In this document: piece after piece, positions 1-5,840 of the stretch
Numbering within the stretch: position 1 is the stretch's first letter
How the letters are laid out: each line of letters starts with the position of its first letter
Origin: Deltaproteobacteria bacterium
Lineage (GTDB): Bacteria; Myxococcota; XYA12-FULL-58-9; JAUUZB01
Length of the DNA stretch: 5,840 nucleotides
Reading direction: 5' to 3'
NCBI GenBank assembly: GCA_030590185.1
Contig: JAUUZB010000318.1
Span: forward strand, 1-5,840
Translations under genes and position numbers: made by a program
The notes under the pieces: generated by a model
The model's database searches: none
Told to the model about the DNA's origin: nothing
The model's input: the letters and a program-made list of their open reading frames with translations, nothing else

Positions 1-508
1 CGGCGTACTTATCGAGGTCGGGATCGTTCAGGGCACGATTGTTCTCGAACAACTTATCGTGCATCTCCCAGAACTTGCCCTGCTCGTTGGCGCACATGGT
101 CGCGTTGGCCGCCGGCATCGCCCGCTGGTGGAAGCCCAGGGGGTTCTGCTTGAAGACCATGCGAACATCGTTGCCGTATTTCTCAGAGACCTGCTTGAGA
201 GTCGGACCGACTCTCTTACAATAGGGTCATTGAAAGTCCGATACTTCGATCACCGTCACCCAGGCATCCTTCGGGCCTTTCTGGGGCGAGTCGCCGACCG
301 GGAATGAATAGGTCTTGGCCGGATCGGGGCCGCGGGGTTTCTGTGGGGGGGTCGGGCGCTGGGGCCCGGCTTTCCCGACCTTGTCTAGCTTGGTCAGGAT
401 GTCCTTTTGGTTCTTCTTGATCTCCTCAATATCGGCCCGGGTGATACATCCCGCTAGGAACGTGAAACCCAGGAGGAGCAAGGGAACCCGTTGCTGGGTT
501 AGCCTCAT
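1..508 (-). CDS. Selenocysteine-containing DsbA-like (thioredoxin-fold) lipoprotein, 3' end cut by window edge
   Basis: Probable thiol-disulfide oxidoreductase tethered to a membrane on the periplasmic side. It starts at the ATG at 508, preceded by AGGAGG. Residues 1-21 form a lipoprotein signal peptide with lipobox LAGC (Cys21). Residues 24-44 are a charged, probably coiled-coil helix, and 45-64 a Pro-rich linker. The thioredoxin-like domain begins near residue 65 and reaches strand VTVIEVSDFQ. The next codon is TGA (229..227), followed in frame by PYCKRVGPTL, FKQNPLGFH, AMPAANATMC and EQGKFWEMHDKLF. These are typical of the DsbA/thioredoxin_4 family, where the site is normally FQCPFC. TGA thus replaces the first active-site Cys, giving Sec94-Pro-Tyr-Cys97. 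A hairpin with a GGUC loop follows (see SECIS entry). There are 169 complete codons in the window; the cis-Pro loop and C-terminus lie outside. It is transcribed divergently from rsmD. The alternative, a nonsense mutation, is less likely because the frame stays open and conserved and the hairpin is correctly placed. Confidence 0.92.
197..215 (-). promoter_or_regulatory. Bacterial SECIS element (selenocysteine insertion hairpin)
   Basis: The mRNA-sense sequence is gagagtcggtccgactctc, a perfect inverted repeat. It folds as an 8-bp stem (GAGAGUCG/CGACUCUC) closed by G-U-C, or as a 7-bp stem with loop GGUCC. A possible lower stem of about 4 pairs, including G-U pairs, lies beyond an AA/AA internal loop. 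The GGUC occupies nucleotides 19-22 after the UGA. From memory, the E. coli fdhF SECIS has its SelB-binding GGUC in the same register. The element is inside the coding sequence, as expected in bacteria, and would recruit SelB with Sec-tRNA. Unlike the fdhF hairpin it shows no obvious bulged U in the upper stem. Confidence 0.85.
227..229 (-). other. In-frame UGA read as selenocysteine (Sec94)
   Basis: On the minus strand the codons run ttt caa TGA ccc tat tgt, that is F-Q-U-P-Y-C. The TGA lies at the N-terminal, nucleophilic cysteine position of the CXXC motif, the usual place for Sec in redox selenoproteins. Downstream codons stay in the same frame, with no stop, to the window edge. Standard gene callers would end the gene here and lose the catalytic domain. 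Confidence 0.9.
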
Positions 509-518
509 GGTGTGAGTG

Positions 519-524
519 CCTCCT
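519..524 (-). promoter_or_regulatory. Shine-Dalgarno AGGAGG for the selenoprotein
   Basis: A perfect AGGAGG on the minus strand ends 10 nt before the ATG at 508. It fixes the start codon and shows that the lipoprotein signal peptide is the true N-terminus. It is the best ribosome binding site in the window. Confidence 0.8.
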
Positions 525-653: not shown

Positions 654-1316
654 ATGCGGGTGATCGCTGGCACCGCCCGTGGCCGTCGGCTCACGGCGCC
701 AAGAGGAGCGGACACCCGCCCTACGCCGGACCGCGTCCGCGAGGCCCTATTCTCACTGCTCGCCCCACACCTGCCCGAGGCGCGGGTCCTCGACCTGTTC
801 GCCGGCACCGGCGCCCTCGGGATCGAGGCCCTGTCCCGGGGGGCGGGCCACGCCACCTTCATCGAAAGGGATCGCGACGCCCTCACCGCCCTACGCCGTA
901 ACCTGACGATCCTTCCAGGGGCCGACGTCCGGGTCCTGGGCCAGCCCTTGCCCCGTGCCCTCGACCCCCTCGCCGAAGAGGAGCCCTTTGATCTGATCTT
1001 CCTCGACCCGCCCTACGCAGCCGGTCTCCTCGCTGCCACCCTCGCCCGCCTCAGTGAGCTCAACCTGCTCAACCACGGCGGTGTGGCGATCTGCGAACAC
1101 CCGGGCGGCGCCCAAGGTGAAGCCTCGCCCCCGGAAACGATCAGATCTCTGCCCTCCTCAGCCTGGCGGATCCTGGAGACCCGGAGTTGGGGGAACGTCG
1201 CCGTCACCCTGCTCGGCCCGTTGGCGAGGGAATCATCCCCCAACGGCGGGCATCTCAGCCCGACTCGCCGCCGACGGCGCTCCGCGCCCGAACCGATCGT
1301 CACCTTGGAGAATTGA
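654..1316 (+). CDS. rsmD: 16S rRNA (guanine(966)-N(2))-methyltransferase RsmD
   Basis: SAM-dependent methyltransferase that, in E. coli, methylates G966 of 16S rRNA during 30S assembly in the cytoplasm. The protein begins MRVIAGTARGRRL, the usual RsmD N-terminus, which is why the ATG at 654 is preferred. An ATG at 645 is possible (AGGG at 631-634), and the open frame reaches back to 546, but that extension looks non-coding. The SAM-binding motif DLFAGTGALGIEALSRGA lies at residues 47-64, the acidic residue FIERD at 69-73, and the catalytic DPPY at 118-121. At 220 residues it is somewhat longer than the usual 180-200 because of a hydrophilic Arg-rich tail (about 190-220, including TRRRRRS). 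It is the first gene of the plus-strand cluster and ends 4 nt before coaD. Confidence 0.93.
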   Translation: MRVIAGTARGRRLTAPRGADTRPTPDRVREALFSLLAPHLPEARVLDLFAGTGALGIEALSRGAGHATFIERDRDALTALRRNLTILPGADVRVLGQPLPRALDPLAEEEPFDLIFLDPPYAAGLLAATLARLSELNLLNHGGVAICEHPGGAQGEASPPETIRSLPSSAWRILETRSWGNVAVTLLGPLARESSPNGGHLSPTRRRRRSAPEPIVTLEN

Positions 1317-1320
1317 TCTC

Positions 1321-1821
1321 ATGCTCACCGCTGTCTACCCTGGCTCCTTCGATCCGATCACCAACGGACACCCCAACCTCATTGAGCGGGGCCTCAACAT
1401 CTTCGAGCGCCTGATCATCGGTATCTCCACCAACATCCGCAAAAAATGCATGTTCACCTTCGAGGAGCGCTCGGACATGCTCCGCCATACCCTGCGCGAC
1501 CATGGCTGGGAGGACCGGGTGGAGGTCGACGCCTTTGACGGCCTGTTGGTGGAGTACGCCCGCTCCCGCAAGGCCACCGCCATCCTGCGTGGCCTTCGCG
1601 CCGTCGCCGATTTCGAGTACGAGTTCCAAATGGCCCACATGAACCGCCGACTGGCCGAGAACATTGAAACCGTCTTCATGATGACCGGCGAGGAGCACTT
1701 CTACGTCTCGAGCTCGCTGGTCCGCGAGGTCGCCCACTTTGGCGGCTCGGTCACCGGCCTGGTGCCGGCCTACGTCGAGGATTGTCTACTCAAACGCATC
1801 GAGGAGCTGAGAAGCGCGTGA
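1321..1821 (+). CDS. coaD: Phosphopantetheine adenylyltransferase CoaD
   Basis: Catalyses ATP + 4'-phosphopantetheine to dephospho-CoA + pyrophosphate, the penultimate step of coenzyme A synthesis, in the cytoplasm. The 166-residue product has the family's usual length. Its nucleotidyltransferase signature GSFDPITNGH is at residues 8-17 (TNGH, the (T/H)xGH motif). RGLRAVADFEYEFQMAHMNR (90-109) and SSSLVREVA (130-138) also match the family. The ATG follows the rsmD stop by 4 nt, with GGAG at 1307-1310 inside the rsmD end as ribosome binding site. The pairing of rsmD with coaD is common in bacteria. Its stop overlaps the aminotransferase start. Confidence 0.97.
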   Translation: MLTAVYPGSFDPITNGHPNLIERGLNIFERLIIGISTNIRKKCMFTFEERSDMLRHTLRDHGWEDRVEVDAFDGLLVEYARSRKATAILRGLRAVADFEYEFQMAHMNRRLAENIETVFMMTGEEHFYVSSSLVREVAHFGGSVTGLVPAYVEDCLLKRIEELRSA

Positions 1822-3013: not shown

Positions 3014-3466
3014 ATGATTTCCCCTGCCGGTTTCAGCACCATCCTCCGCGGCTTGGCCGGGCTCGTGCTGATCAGCGCTTGCAGCGACCCACAGAAGGTC
3101 GACGGCTTCCCGGATACGTACGCCGGCATCGGTCTCGAGCTCGAGGTCACCGGCGACATGGTCCGGGTGGTGCGCCCGATCAAGGGCGGGCCGTCGGAGG
3201 CGGCCGGAATCAAGGCCGACGACGAGATCACCGCGATCAACGGCAAGTCGACCGAAGGCATGTCCCTCGGCGAAGTCGTCACCGTGCTGCGCGGTCGTCC
3301 CGGCTCCCAGCTCACCCTCTCCCTACGACGCCAGGGCTCGAAGCTCTTGGTGGTGCTGCGCCGCAGCCGCCTCAAGAAAACAGGCAAGGGCTATGAGGCC
3401 CAAGAGGAGGAGGAGCCGCCGCCCCCGCCGCCCAAGAAAAAGAAGAAGAGGAAAAAGAGAAAGTAA
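3014..3466 (+). CDS. Small PDZ-domain lipoprotein with Glu/Pro/Lys-Arg tail
   Basis: 150 residues. An N-terminal signal peptide ends in lipobox ISAC (Cys23), with Ser at +2, so outer-membrane sorting is plausible. Residues about 36-117 form one PDZ domain: YAGIGLELE, VVRPIKGGPSEAAGIKADDE, ITAINGKSTEGMSLGEVV and LRGRPGSQLTLSLRR. It resembles the PDZ of C-terminal processing (S41) proteases, but no peptidase domain follows. The tail after residue 130 is four Glu, six Pro and ten Lys/Arg. PDZ domains bind peptide C-termini or termini exposed by proteolysis, so an adaptor or scaffold role in the envelope is an inference. It starts 17 nt after the aminotransferase stop, without a convincing Shine-Dalgarno, and is probably the last gene of the operon. 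I recognise no named gene. Confidence 0.85.
   Translation: MISPAGFSTILRGLAGLVLISACSDPQKVDGFPDTYAGIGLELEVTGDMVRVVRPIKGGPSEAAGIKADDEITAINGKSTEGMSLGEVVTVLRGRPGSQLTLSLRRQGSKLLVVLRRSRLKKTGKGYEAQEEEEPPPPPPKKKKKRKKRK
3404..3463 (+). repeat. Low-complexity tract coding E4-P6-(K/R)10
   Basis: Simple codon repeats: gag x4, then six Pro codons (ccg/ccc), then ten aag/aaa/agg/aga codons up to the TAA. The purine-rich end is nearly all A and G on the plus strand, so it is a T/C-rich tract on the minus strand just beyond the end of the converging gene. Such tracts are prone to length variation. Confidence 0.8.
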
Positions 3467-4155: not shown

Positions 4156-4198
4156 ACCATTGGATTTGCGACCGGCGAGTCGTAGACTGCGAGCCATC

Positions 4199-5840
4199 AT
4201 GGCTGGCGGTGAGAGAAGTCGCACCCAAACTCTGGTGCTCGCCGAAGTACCCGAGCGGGTCCTTCTGCGCGACCTGCAGGCTCAACTCGGCCGGATGCGT
4301 GACGACATCGGCGCCCTCGACCTCGACATCGAAACCCTACGCGAGGGGCTCACCGCCTTCGAGTCGGAGTACAACGGCCGCCTCTCCCCTGAGCACGATC
4401 GTCTAACGCGGATCAGCAACCTGACCCGCCACCAGGAGCGTTGGGCCGAGCTGATCAGCCGGGCCGGCGATAGACTCGACGCCAAGGGGGGCAGCGCCAA
4501 GGTCGAGCGCTTGGATCGCCGGCGCCACCGGGAGCTGACCAGCGGTGGACGTCGCCGGCGGGCCACGAGCCAACCGCCACAGGTGGAGCCCCAGGGGCCG
4601 CGCCAACCCACCCCCGCGGACACCGGCGAGCCAGAGGTCAGACGCGACCGCCTCAAGGAGGCCTACCGTTCCCTGGCCCGGCGTTTTCATCCCGACCTGG
4701 CCCGCACGGAAGAGGAGCGACTCGAGCACAGCGCCATGATGACCCGGATCAACGCCCTCTACCACGCCAGCGATCTCACCCGCCTCCAGGCGCTGGCCGA
4801 AACCGCCAAGGGCGGCGAGATCGACGATCCTGAGCTGAGCATCGCGGAGCAGACCGCGATCCTGGAGGAACGCCTCGCCTGGTTCGAGGCGGTGCGTGAG
4901 AACCTGCGCGAGGACCGCATCGAGGTCGAGCGCAGCTCAACCTGCCAGCTGATGCGCCAAGTTCGGCAGGCCGAGGCGAACGGCATCGATCTGATCGACG
5001 ATCTCAGGACCGAGCTACAGGACCGCATCGCGGGCGCCTACGACGACGTGGGCGCGGCGGTGCGTCTGGTGGAGAAACAGGTGACCGACTTCAACCGCAA
5101 GGTTAGCACCCTGACCAAGAGCGGCGCCGAAGCGCTGCAGAAGATTTTCGACCCCTACACCGACAAGCGCCTGGTACGCCTGGGGCTCGATCACCTCGCC
5201 CACGGCCGCCTCACCTCGGCGGCCCGCGAGCTGGCCGAATGGATCGAACAGGGCGCCGTCGAGCGCCCCGCCCAGGTGCGCCTCCTGATGTTGACCTACG
5301 TCTCGGAGCTCTCGCCGTTCCCCCTCGAGGGGATCGAAAGCTATGAGGACGTGCAGCTGCGCTTCGACTTTCTCAACGGCGACGCCCCGGATCCCCCGAG
5401 CCTCGAGCAGACCCTGGTGGAGATCGACGACCTGGTGGAGTTTGGGGTCAAACGCGCCGGCGGGCAGGTCGCCCACATCGGCTTGCGCTTTCGCTCCACC
5501 GAGGTCCGCGAGGCGATCCCGGCGGCCTTGCAGCGTCTGCCCGTGCGCCGCCTGCTGCGCGGAGTGCTCGGTGTGCTCAGCGAGCTCCAGCCGTGCAGCG
5601 GTTGTGGCGAGGAGACCTTCCCGGTCCCGCTCTATCGCCTGCGCGGCCTCGACAACCTGCGCAGCGTCGTGTGTCCTAATTGTGGACACTCGCTGAGCAG
5701 CTATTGGATGCCCAAGGGCCAGGACGTCCAGGCGGTGCTCAACGCCACCTTCCTCGACTTTGAGCTAATCAGCGAATGGAGCTTTCAGCTCGACCGCGGC
5801 AGCGTCGCCACCCAGCTCGTCCCCTGTCAGGTCGACGATC
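4199..5840 (+). CDS. J-domain-like protein with helical arms and zinc-ribbon-like motif, 3' end cut by window edge
   Basis: Open frame of 547 codons from ATG 4199 with no stop before the right edge. Residues about 15-110 are charged and probably coiled-coil (for example ERVLLRDLQAQLGRMRDD, FESEYNGRLSPEHDRL). Residues 105-147 are basic then Pro/Gln-rich, likely disordered. A partial J domain follows: helix II RLKEAYRSLARRFHPDLA with HPD at 164-166, then helix III ending in MMTRINALYHASD. Helix I is not recognisable. Long helical segments fill about 190-320, and residues 321-360 may be a helical repeat. Near the end, Cys466-x2-Cys469 and Cys492-x2-Cys495 look like a zinc ribbon. No signal peptide, so probably cytoplasmic. 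An Hsp70 (DnaK) partner is expected from the HPD motif, by family knowledge. The Shine-Dalgarno is weak, so the start is less sure than the frame. I recognise no named gene. Confidence 0.85.
   Translation, partial: MAGGERSRTQTLVLAEVPERVLLRDLQAQLGRMRDDIGALDLDIETLREGLTAFESEYNGRLSPEHDRLTRISNLTRHQERWAELISRAGDRLDAKGGSAKVERLDRRRHRELTSGGRRRRATSQPPQVEPQGPRQPTPADTGEPEVRRDRLKEAYRSLARRFHPDLARTEEERLEHSAMMTRINALYHASDLTRLQALAETAKGGEIDDPELSIAEQTAILEERLAWFEAVRENLREDRIEVERSSTCQLMRQVRQAEANGIDLIDDLRTELQDRIAGAYDDVGAAVRLVEKQVTDFNRKVSTLTKSGAEALQKIFDPYTDKRLVRLGLDHLAHGRLTSAARELAEWIEQGAVERPAQVRLLMLTYVSELSPFPLEGIESYEDVQLRFDFLNGDAPDPPSLEQTLVEIDDLVEFGVKRAGGQVAHIGLRFRSTEVREAIPAALQRLPVRRLLRGVLGVLSELQPCSGCGEETFPVPLYRLRGLDNLRSVVCPNCGHSLSSYWMPKGQDVQAVLNATFLDFELISEWSFQLDRGSVATQLVPCQVDD

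Follow-up and report, generated by a model that had tools for sequence, protein, structure and literature searches.

An in-frame TGA at the active site of a DsbA-like lipoprotein gene is very probably a selenocysteine codon

The locus analysed here raises the question of why a frame for a DsbA-like protein should meet a stop codon exactly at its catalytic motif. The window, that is, the whole 5,840-nucleotide stretch of DNA that was analysed, carries this frame on its minus strand next to two divergently oriented genes, and our analysis points to the TGA in question as a codon for selenocysteine (Sec). The features on which this reading draws are as follows, with their basis in brackets.

2–508, minus strand: 5′ two thirds (169 codons) of a predicted Sec-containing DsbA-like lipoprotein gene (read-through translation, homologues, Pfam)
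519–524, minus strand: AGGAGG ribosome-binding site (10 nt before the ATG)
446–457, minus strand: lipobox L-A-G-C, residues 18–21 (translation; the Cys hardly varies among 50 aligned relatives)
377–439, minus strand: N-terminal helix, likely a coiled coil, residues 24–44 (model of orthologue P0288)
311–376, minus strand: Pro-rich linker, residues 45–66 (translation)
2–280, minus strand: DsbA/Thioredoxin_4 domain, incomplete at the window edge (Pfam; fold from orthologue P0288)
227–229, minus strand: in-frame TGA, codon 94, probably read as Sec at the first position of CxxC (alignment with Cys homologues, TGA copies)
197–215, minus strand: putative SECIS-type apical hairpin GAGAGUCG-GUC-CGACUCUC, with GGUC at 208–205 (folding, covariation, comparison with fdhF)
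654–1316, plus strand: rsmD, divergent neighbour, ending in TGA (TIGR00095, 150.3 bits; synteny)
1321–1821, plus strand: coaD, ending in TGA (TIGR01510, 189.8 bits; synteny)

The 169-residue frame runs from position 508 to position 2 of the minus strand, and its single internal stop is the TGA at 227–229 (residue 94); no other stop occurs in it. Read-through placed this codon within VSDFQ-U-PYCKRVGPTLK, at the first Cys of the CPYC motif of DsbA, which bears out the claim of the first-pass annotation that one internal TGA occupies the first cysteine of a CXXC motif. Its expectation that the annotated protein would end at residue 93 also proved correct: the protein database entry P0099 is the window's own 93-residue product, cut at the active site. 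The minus-strand DsbA-like frame is therefore real, but about two thirds of the protein lie within the window; the last third of the gene is absent because the frame runs off the left end after 169 codons. The best homologues are 64–69% identical to the window gene, and most of the listed relatives are 246–293 residues long.

The window fragment shows the architecture of an anchored oxidoreductase. With the TGA read as C, the Pfam Thioredoxin_4 model matched residues 77–166 (51.8 bits) and DSBA (PF01323) matched residues 85–129 (34 bits, cut-off 25.6), both matches spanning codon 94. The fragment combines PF01323 with UxxC in the form U-P-Y-C, and its orthologue P0288 scores 92.5 bits with the same model. 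The structure model of P0288, calculated with C in place of Sec, has a mean pLDDT of 91.8 and shows a helix (residues 24–46), a linker and a DsbA fold; based on this prediction, the window protein would adopt the DsbA fold as well. Upstream of the domain, the Cys of LAGC (residues 18–21) follows a short signal sequence, an arrangement typical of lipoproteins. We take this motif to be the signal peptidase II site, at which lipidation is predicted. A lipoprotein with an N-terminal coiled coil and a Pro-rich linker had been proposed for this gene; the lipobox, the helical region and the linker were all recovered, but the coiled coil is our interpretation of the helix.

We identified the same interruption in many relatives. 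A protein search with the 93-residue stub as query, which limited the candidates to short proteins, returned 47 proteins, including the window's own. Among the 46 others, 41 end in SDFQ and four in SEFQ; the remaining stub, P0166, ends in SAFT. Forty-five of these 46 short proteins therefore end directly before the active-site position, the listing giving protein ends and not the identity of the stop codon. Two of the stubs bear the name of an organism, V3T05_10240 [Myxococcota bacterium] and HY903_20475 [Deltaproteobacteria bacterium], and the latter has the same N-terminal sequence as the copy in genome G604, where the codon is TGA. A scan of genome contigs covered the best 80 of more than 530 confirmed matches, at 78 loci. 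In this set, the column of residue 94 reads CPFC or CPYC in 216 of 238 aligned stretches, a stop followed by PxC in 12 and something else in 10, so that cysteine homologues do align at the TGA, as had been anticipated. Column C93 was invariant in the 50 aligned rows, in which P0288, P0289 and P0001 had TGA read as C.

At the DNA level, the matches listed came from 161 sources, a sample and not a census, and contained 27 distinct TGA regions (the window plus 26 from 20 genomes) and 272 Cys regions. In none of the 27 TGA regions does a further stop occur within 25 codons. The stubs together with these 26 other TGA copies show that independent relatives keep a stop at the same codon, which supports the proposal that this TGA is a Sec codon of the DsbA family. 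Two paralogues in G616 and G604 that contain a TGA within a wide frame were rejected as Sec copies, their active site being Cys in both cases.

Termination competes with Sec insertion in bacteria, and the N-terminal part of the protein is conserved across the 45 stubs. Both observations would fit a UGA that is partly a genuine stop, with the 93-residue short lipoprotein as a second product under selenium control. Against this, all 26 other copies have an open frame of 144 codons or more past the TGA, and the short form would have no catalytic domain; we consider such a dual output improbable, if the most durable of the alternatives. Reading through the UGA remains the preferred interpretation, and it is further substantiated by what follows the codon in the RNA.

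As in bacterial selenoproteins, a hairpin follows soon after the UGA and has a G in its apical loop, the GGUC of the window lying at nucleotides 22–25 counted from the UGA. In the register used for comparison, nucleotides 15–22 pair with nucleotides 26–33, counted from the U of UGA, to form eight pairs. Among the matches listed, at least seven of these eight pairs form in 22 of 27 TGA regions versus 8 of 272 Cys regions, GGTC occupies nucleotides 22–25 in 23 of 27 versus 3 of 272, and the Gly codon at the GGTC residue is GGT in 23 of 23 versus 4 of 20; p-values for these contrasts overstate independence because the sequences of the TGA and Cys regions are related. The codon usage of the window does not readily produce the structure by chance, as 830 of 200000 synonymous recodings drawn with this usage contained all eight base pairs of the stem. 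Over 42 nt, the window hairpin was more stable than its shuffled versions (z = -4.14; 0 of 200 as stable), and over 49 nt the difference was smaller (z = -2.35; 6 of 200). Fold stability alone decides little, since the real SECIS of E. coli fdhF scored only z = -0.91 in the same shuffle test.

Covariation was analysed in 22 of the 27 TGA regions, namely those with GGTC in register and with L126 left out. In these 22 regions, 97.2% of the cells pair, compared with 24–59% when the partner is shifted by one to three columns. Changes on both sides of a pair were found at two of the eight pairs, in five cells, a cell count that none of 500 shuffles reached; the number of pairs changed on both sides (88 of 500 shuffles) and the number of further pair types (346 of 500) did not exceed shuffles of the same regions. 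One stem pair that is G-C in 17 regions is A-U in the window, L142 and L121. The hairpin of L144 competes with another fold. Four of the 27 TGA regions have no GGTC in register: L128, L132 and L137 (another lineage) and one domain of L054, and the folds of L132 and L128 were no better than shuffles. In L128, L132 and L137, a different hairpin around CCAGUUUGG may replace the common GGUC hairpin. An Rfam scan of the window at E values up to 5 gave two chance-level matches, neither of them within the DsbA gene.

The closest orthologues that we found belong to the phylum of genome G023, in which 10 of 146 genomes contain a match at 1e-44 or better. Four of these ten genomes carry TGA (G611, 66% identical, G604, G613 and G625) and six carry Cys. 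In this close lineage, selA was found in four of four TGA genomes versus three of six Cys genomes, selB over cut-off likewise in four of four versus three of six, and tRNA-Sec of at least 68 bits in four of four versus two of six; selA and selB occur together in three of the six Cys genomes. All three components were jointly present in four of four TGA versus two of six Cys genomes, a small contrast (p = 0.08) between genomes that are not independent. ARAGORN identified all six hits of at least 68 bits as tRNA-SeC (tca) and three hits of 46–48 bits as tRNA-Ser, including one in G624 that is formally over the Rfam cut-off. In the tRNA-Sec searches, both here and in the first machinery set described next, some of the first-look candidates were scored, 88 or at most 150 in each genome.

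A first machinery set comprised 36 of the 78 loci in 35 genomes, with TGA status assigned by the fetched locus. Here selB was over cut-off in eight of eight TGA genomes versus 15 of 27 others and tRNA-Sec of at least 58 bits occurred in seven of eight versus 14 of 27, a contrast that is blurred because at least one of the others (G013) has a TGA homologue elsewhere. In the TGA genome G005, no tRNA-Sec match exceeded 45.2 bits among the candidates scored. Among other phyla, that of G001 (Paraliomyxa; 235, then 377 genomes) yielded nothing as closely related as the orthologues of the G023 phylum, that of G011 (188 genomes, largely shared with the 235-genome G001 search) gave nothing at 1e-44, and that of G006 gave a match at 1e-30 in eight of 198 genomes. 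Paraliomyxa miuraensis SMH-27-4 is one strain in which a relative (L001/L141) occurs.

These data also bear on the possibility that a changed code or a suppressor tRNA has the UGA read as Cys or Trp. Most homologues do have Cys at the position of codon 94. However, rsmD (ending at 1316) and coaD (ending at 1821) both terminate at TGA, so that TGA acts as an ordinary stop here and the code appears unchanged, and the hairpin along with the selA, selB and tRNA-Sec of the TGA relatives indicates Sec; we regard a Cys or Trp reading as highly unlikely. Selenocysteine is thus the residue that we assign to codon 94 in what follows.

The gene neighbourhood allows Sec and Cys versions of the gene to be compared. 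G624 and G597 share the arrangement of the window, with the DsbA gene divergent beside rsmD, coaD and a PDZ gene, and have Cys in this gene; no selA, no selB over cut-off and no tRNA-SeC were found in these two genomes. The corresponding gene of the window (3014–3466) encodes a small protein that combines a PDZ domain with a run of Pro and a tail rich in Lys and Arg; a relative of it lies next to coaD in G624 and G597. For two of the TGA genomes, G613 and G625, the stretches examined do not place the DsbA gene beside rsmD, and in G611 and G604 the contig ends near it. Each of the ten close-lineage genomes contains one orthologue at least 57% identical to P0288 (TGA in four, Cys in six), and G613 has a second copy at 54% identity. 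Further along the window, positions 4196–5839 encode a long protein that runs off the contig; its similarity to DnaJ is weak, falling short of the Pfam cut-off, and two CxxC pairs lie close to the end of the window.

A tree of the N-terminal region was built from 163 rows (113 Cys and 50 Sec), after six of 119 Cys rows were dropped for motif or length and the stub P0166 was dropped as well. Sec and Cys rows are mixed in this tree, which needs 13 changes between them compared with a shuffled mean of 43, and the window lies inside an all-Sec set of five rows with support 97. Repeated exchange between Sec and Cys is therefore likely but not proven, because the starred branches force only two changes and the columns are few; gain and loss cannot be told apart in this tree.

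The least probable alternative that we weighed is that this is an ordinary Cys DsbA gene in which the TGA arose by a recent nonsense mutation or by an error in sequencing. In line with this account, the window is a single short contig, and Cys occupies the position in the closest full-length relatives inspected from the database; yet 45 of the 46 other short proteins end directly ahead of this codon, 26 more TGA copies in 20 genomes are free of another stop within 25 codons, and the hairpin accompanies TGA, not Cys. Taken together, these observations make an error or recent mutation extremely unlikely. A pseudogene or plain truncation was rejected in view of the independent TGA copies, the open downstream frame and the TGA-linked hairpin.

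We therefore consider it very likely that the gene product is a thiol-disulfide oxidoreductase of the DsbA superfamily, anchored to a membrane in the envelope, and that its nucleophilic active-site residue is Sec (U-P-Y-C), the UGA being read by means of SelB and the hairpin. This assignment draws on what can be read from DNA: the position of the UGA, its conservation along with that of the hairpin, the Sec machinery of the nearest TGA relatives and the Cys present elsewhere. What we infer beyond this is that the codon is translated as Sec in the source organism, that the protein is lipidated, what its substrates are and whether it works as an oxidase, an isomerase or a reductase; we favour a membrane-anchored thiol-disulfide oxidoreductase or isomerase as the presumed activity. 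In this proposed mechanism, SelB carrying Sec-tRNA would bind the hairpin directly downstream of the UGA at 227–229, and owing to SelB at this hairpin ribosomes would read the UGA as Sec. The protein would then be exported and lipidated at Cys21, the helix and Pro-rich linker would keep the DsbA domain away from the membrane, and Sec94 and Cys97 would cycle between the selenol/thiol and selenenylsulfide states. In Sec enzymes generally, Sec is the faster nucleophile and resists irreversible oxidation, and it would do the same here.

Under this reading, Sec DsbA lipoproteins sit in databases as stubs of 80–104 residues that have lost the catalytic domain, and the 45 stubs are candidates for re-annotation. 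The same gene neighbourhood with Sec in the window and Cys in two relatives devoid of Sec machinery would form a natural series, which would serve to ask what Sec buys an envelope thiol oxidoreductase.

Several relatives, mostly from draft genomes, contain more than one DsbA domain or occur in pairs. At L029:4530–6125, one frame of 532 residues spans two DsbA domains, and the common GGUC hairpin comes after both of its TGAs (residues 178 and 388), which makes the product a candidate two-Sec protein. L013:4140–6836 encodes four DsbA domains in the order Sec, Cys, Cys, Sec, and L054:1428–3347 encodes two Sec DsbA domains, one of which has no common hairpin. With two Sec codons each, and a separate hairpin for most of these, such multi-domain relatives are candidate bacterial multi-Sec proteins. 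At five of 15 TGA loci, the Sec DsbA gene forms a co-directional pair with a Cys paralogue, Sec coming first in all five (L001 5001/6173, L010 4369/5360, L049 4018/5001, L171 4979/5862 and L172 6997/6063). The Sec stub P0157 and the Cys relative P0011 are each listed on a contig of 3283110 bases, so that one genome probably has both. As a tentative extension that we find rather doubtful, Myxococcota and neighbouring lineages might possess a selenium-tuned envelope DsbA system, with repeated Sec/Cys exchange at one orthologous gene, a system that would elsewhere have grown into Sec-then-Cys gene pairs and multi-DsbA chains with two Sec, which would together act as a cell-surface Sec–Cys redox relay.

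Anaeromyxobacter, a myxobacterium, is among the organisms for which related selenoproteins are already on record. A DsbA-like selenoprotein with UxxC (PF01323) was reported from the Sargasso Sea in 2005 (PMC1088965), the GOS survey lists a selenoprotein “DsbA 1” (PMC2398784), PMC1794560 records DsbA-like selenoproteins from Anaeromyxobacter among other organisms, and reviews of 2022 and 2026 include Sec DsbA-like proteins (PMC9312934, PMC13188914); the first-pass annotation was thus right that proteins of this kind had been described. These proteins have in common with the window gene a DsbA domain, Sec in first place within CxxC and a bacterial SECIS downstream of the UGA, and a review table gives the family one Sec. 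The term lipoprotein appears in neither PMC1088965 nor PMC13188914, whereas the window protein bears a lipobox. Our literature search returned no paper linking selenocysteine or selenoproteins with Myxococcota, or selenocysteine and DsbA with Myxococcales, and none on Rcas_1661 or selenolipoproteins. DsbA, disulfide, lipoprotein and thioredoxin are absent from the main text of PMC8318568, and none of the papers on related terms names the group in its title or the opening of its abstract.

By sequence, the best solved match is TsdA/DsbA of Corynebacterium diphtheriae (7unn, 4pwo; 9e-21 with the relative P0002), which is also the best by fold at 33% identity and is a Cys enzyme of a Gram-positive. 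The next fold matches were ScsC, BdbD and other DsbA-like proteins. ScsC proteins of Proteus, Caulobacter and Salmonella have a DsbA fold, and several chains align over most of the P0288 model, N-terminal region included; they are Cys enzymes with 20–24% identity, and their likeness to the window protein is one of fold only. The N-terminal region of ScsC makes a trimer. The SECIS of E. coli fdhF likewise has GGUC at nucleotides 22–25 from the UGA, but it belongs to a formate dehydrogenase gene and its stem sequence differs from that of the window hairpin.

Among described families, NF041057 (Rcas_1661 family thioredoxin-like (seleno)lipoprotein) likewise comprises thioredoxin-like lipoproteins with Sec or Cys, and no other NCBIfam model gave a match below E 1e-8. 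We do not place the window protein in this family. Its cut-off of 190 bits lies above the scores of the window fragment (54.2) and of single-domain orthologues (121.8 and 98.6), whereas the two-domain P0290 reaches 196.9 bits over two matched stretches. The suggestion that the window protein is of a less familiar type therefore holds for the single-domain proteins that score below this cut-off, but not for Sec thioredoxin-like lipoproteins as such, for which NCBI already has a model. Because of this model and of the published Sec DsbA-like proteins, we class the window gene and its relatives as a new group of an already known sort.
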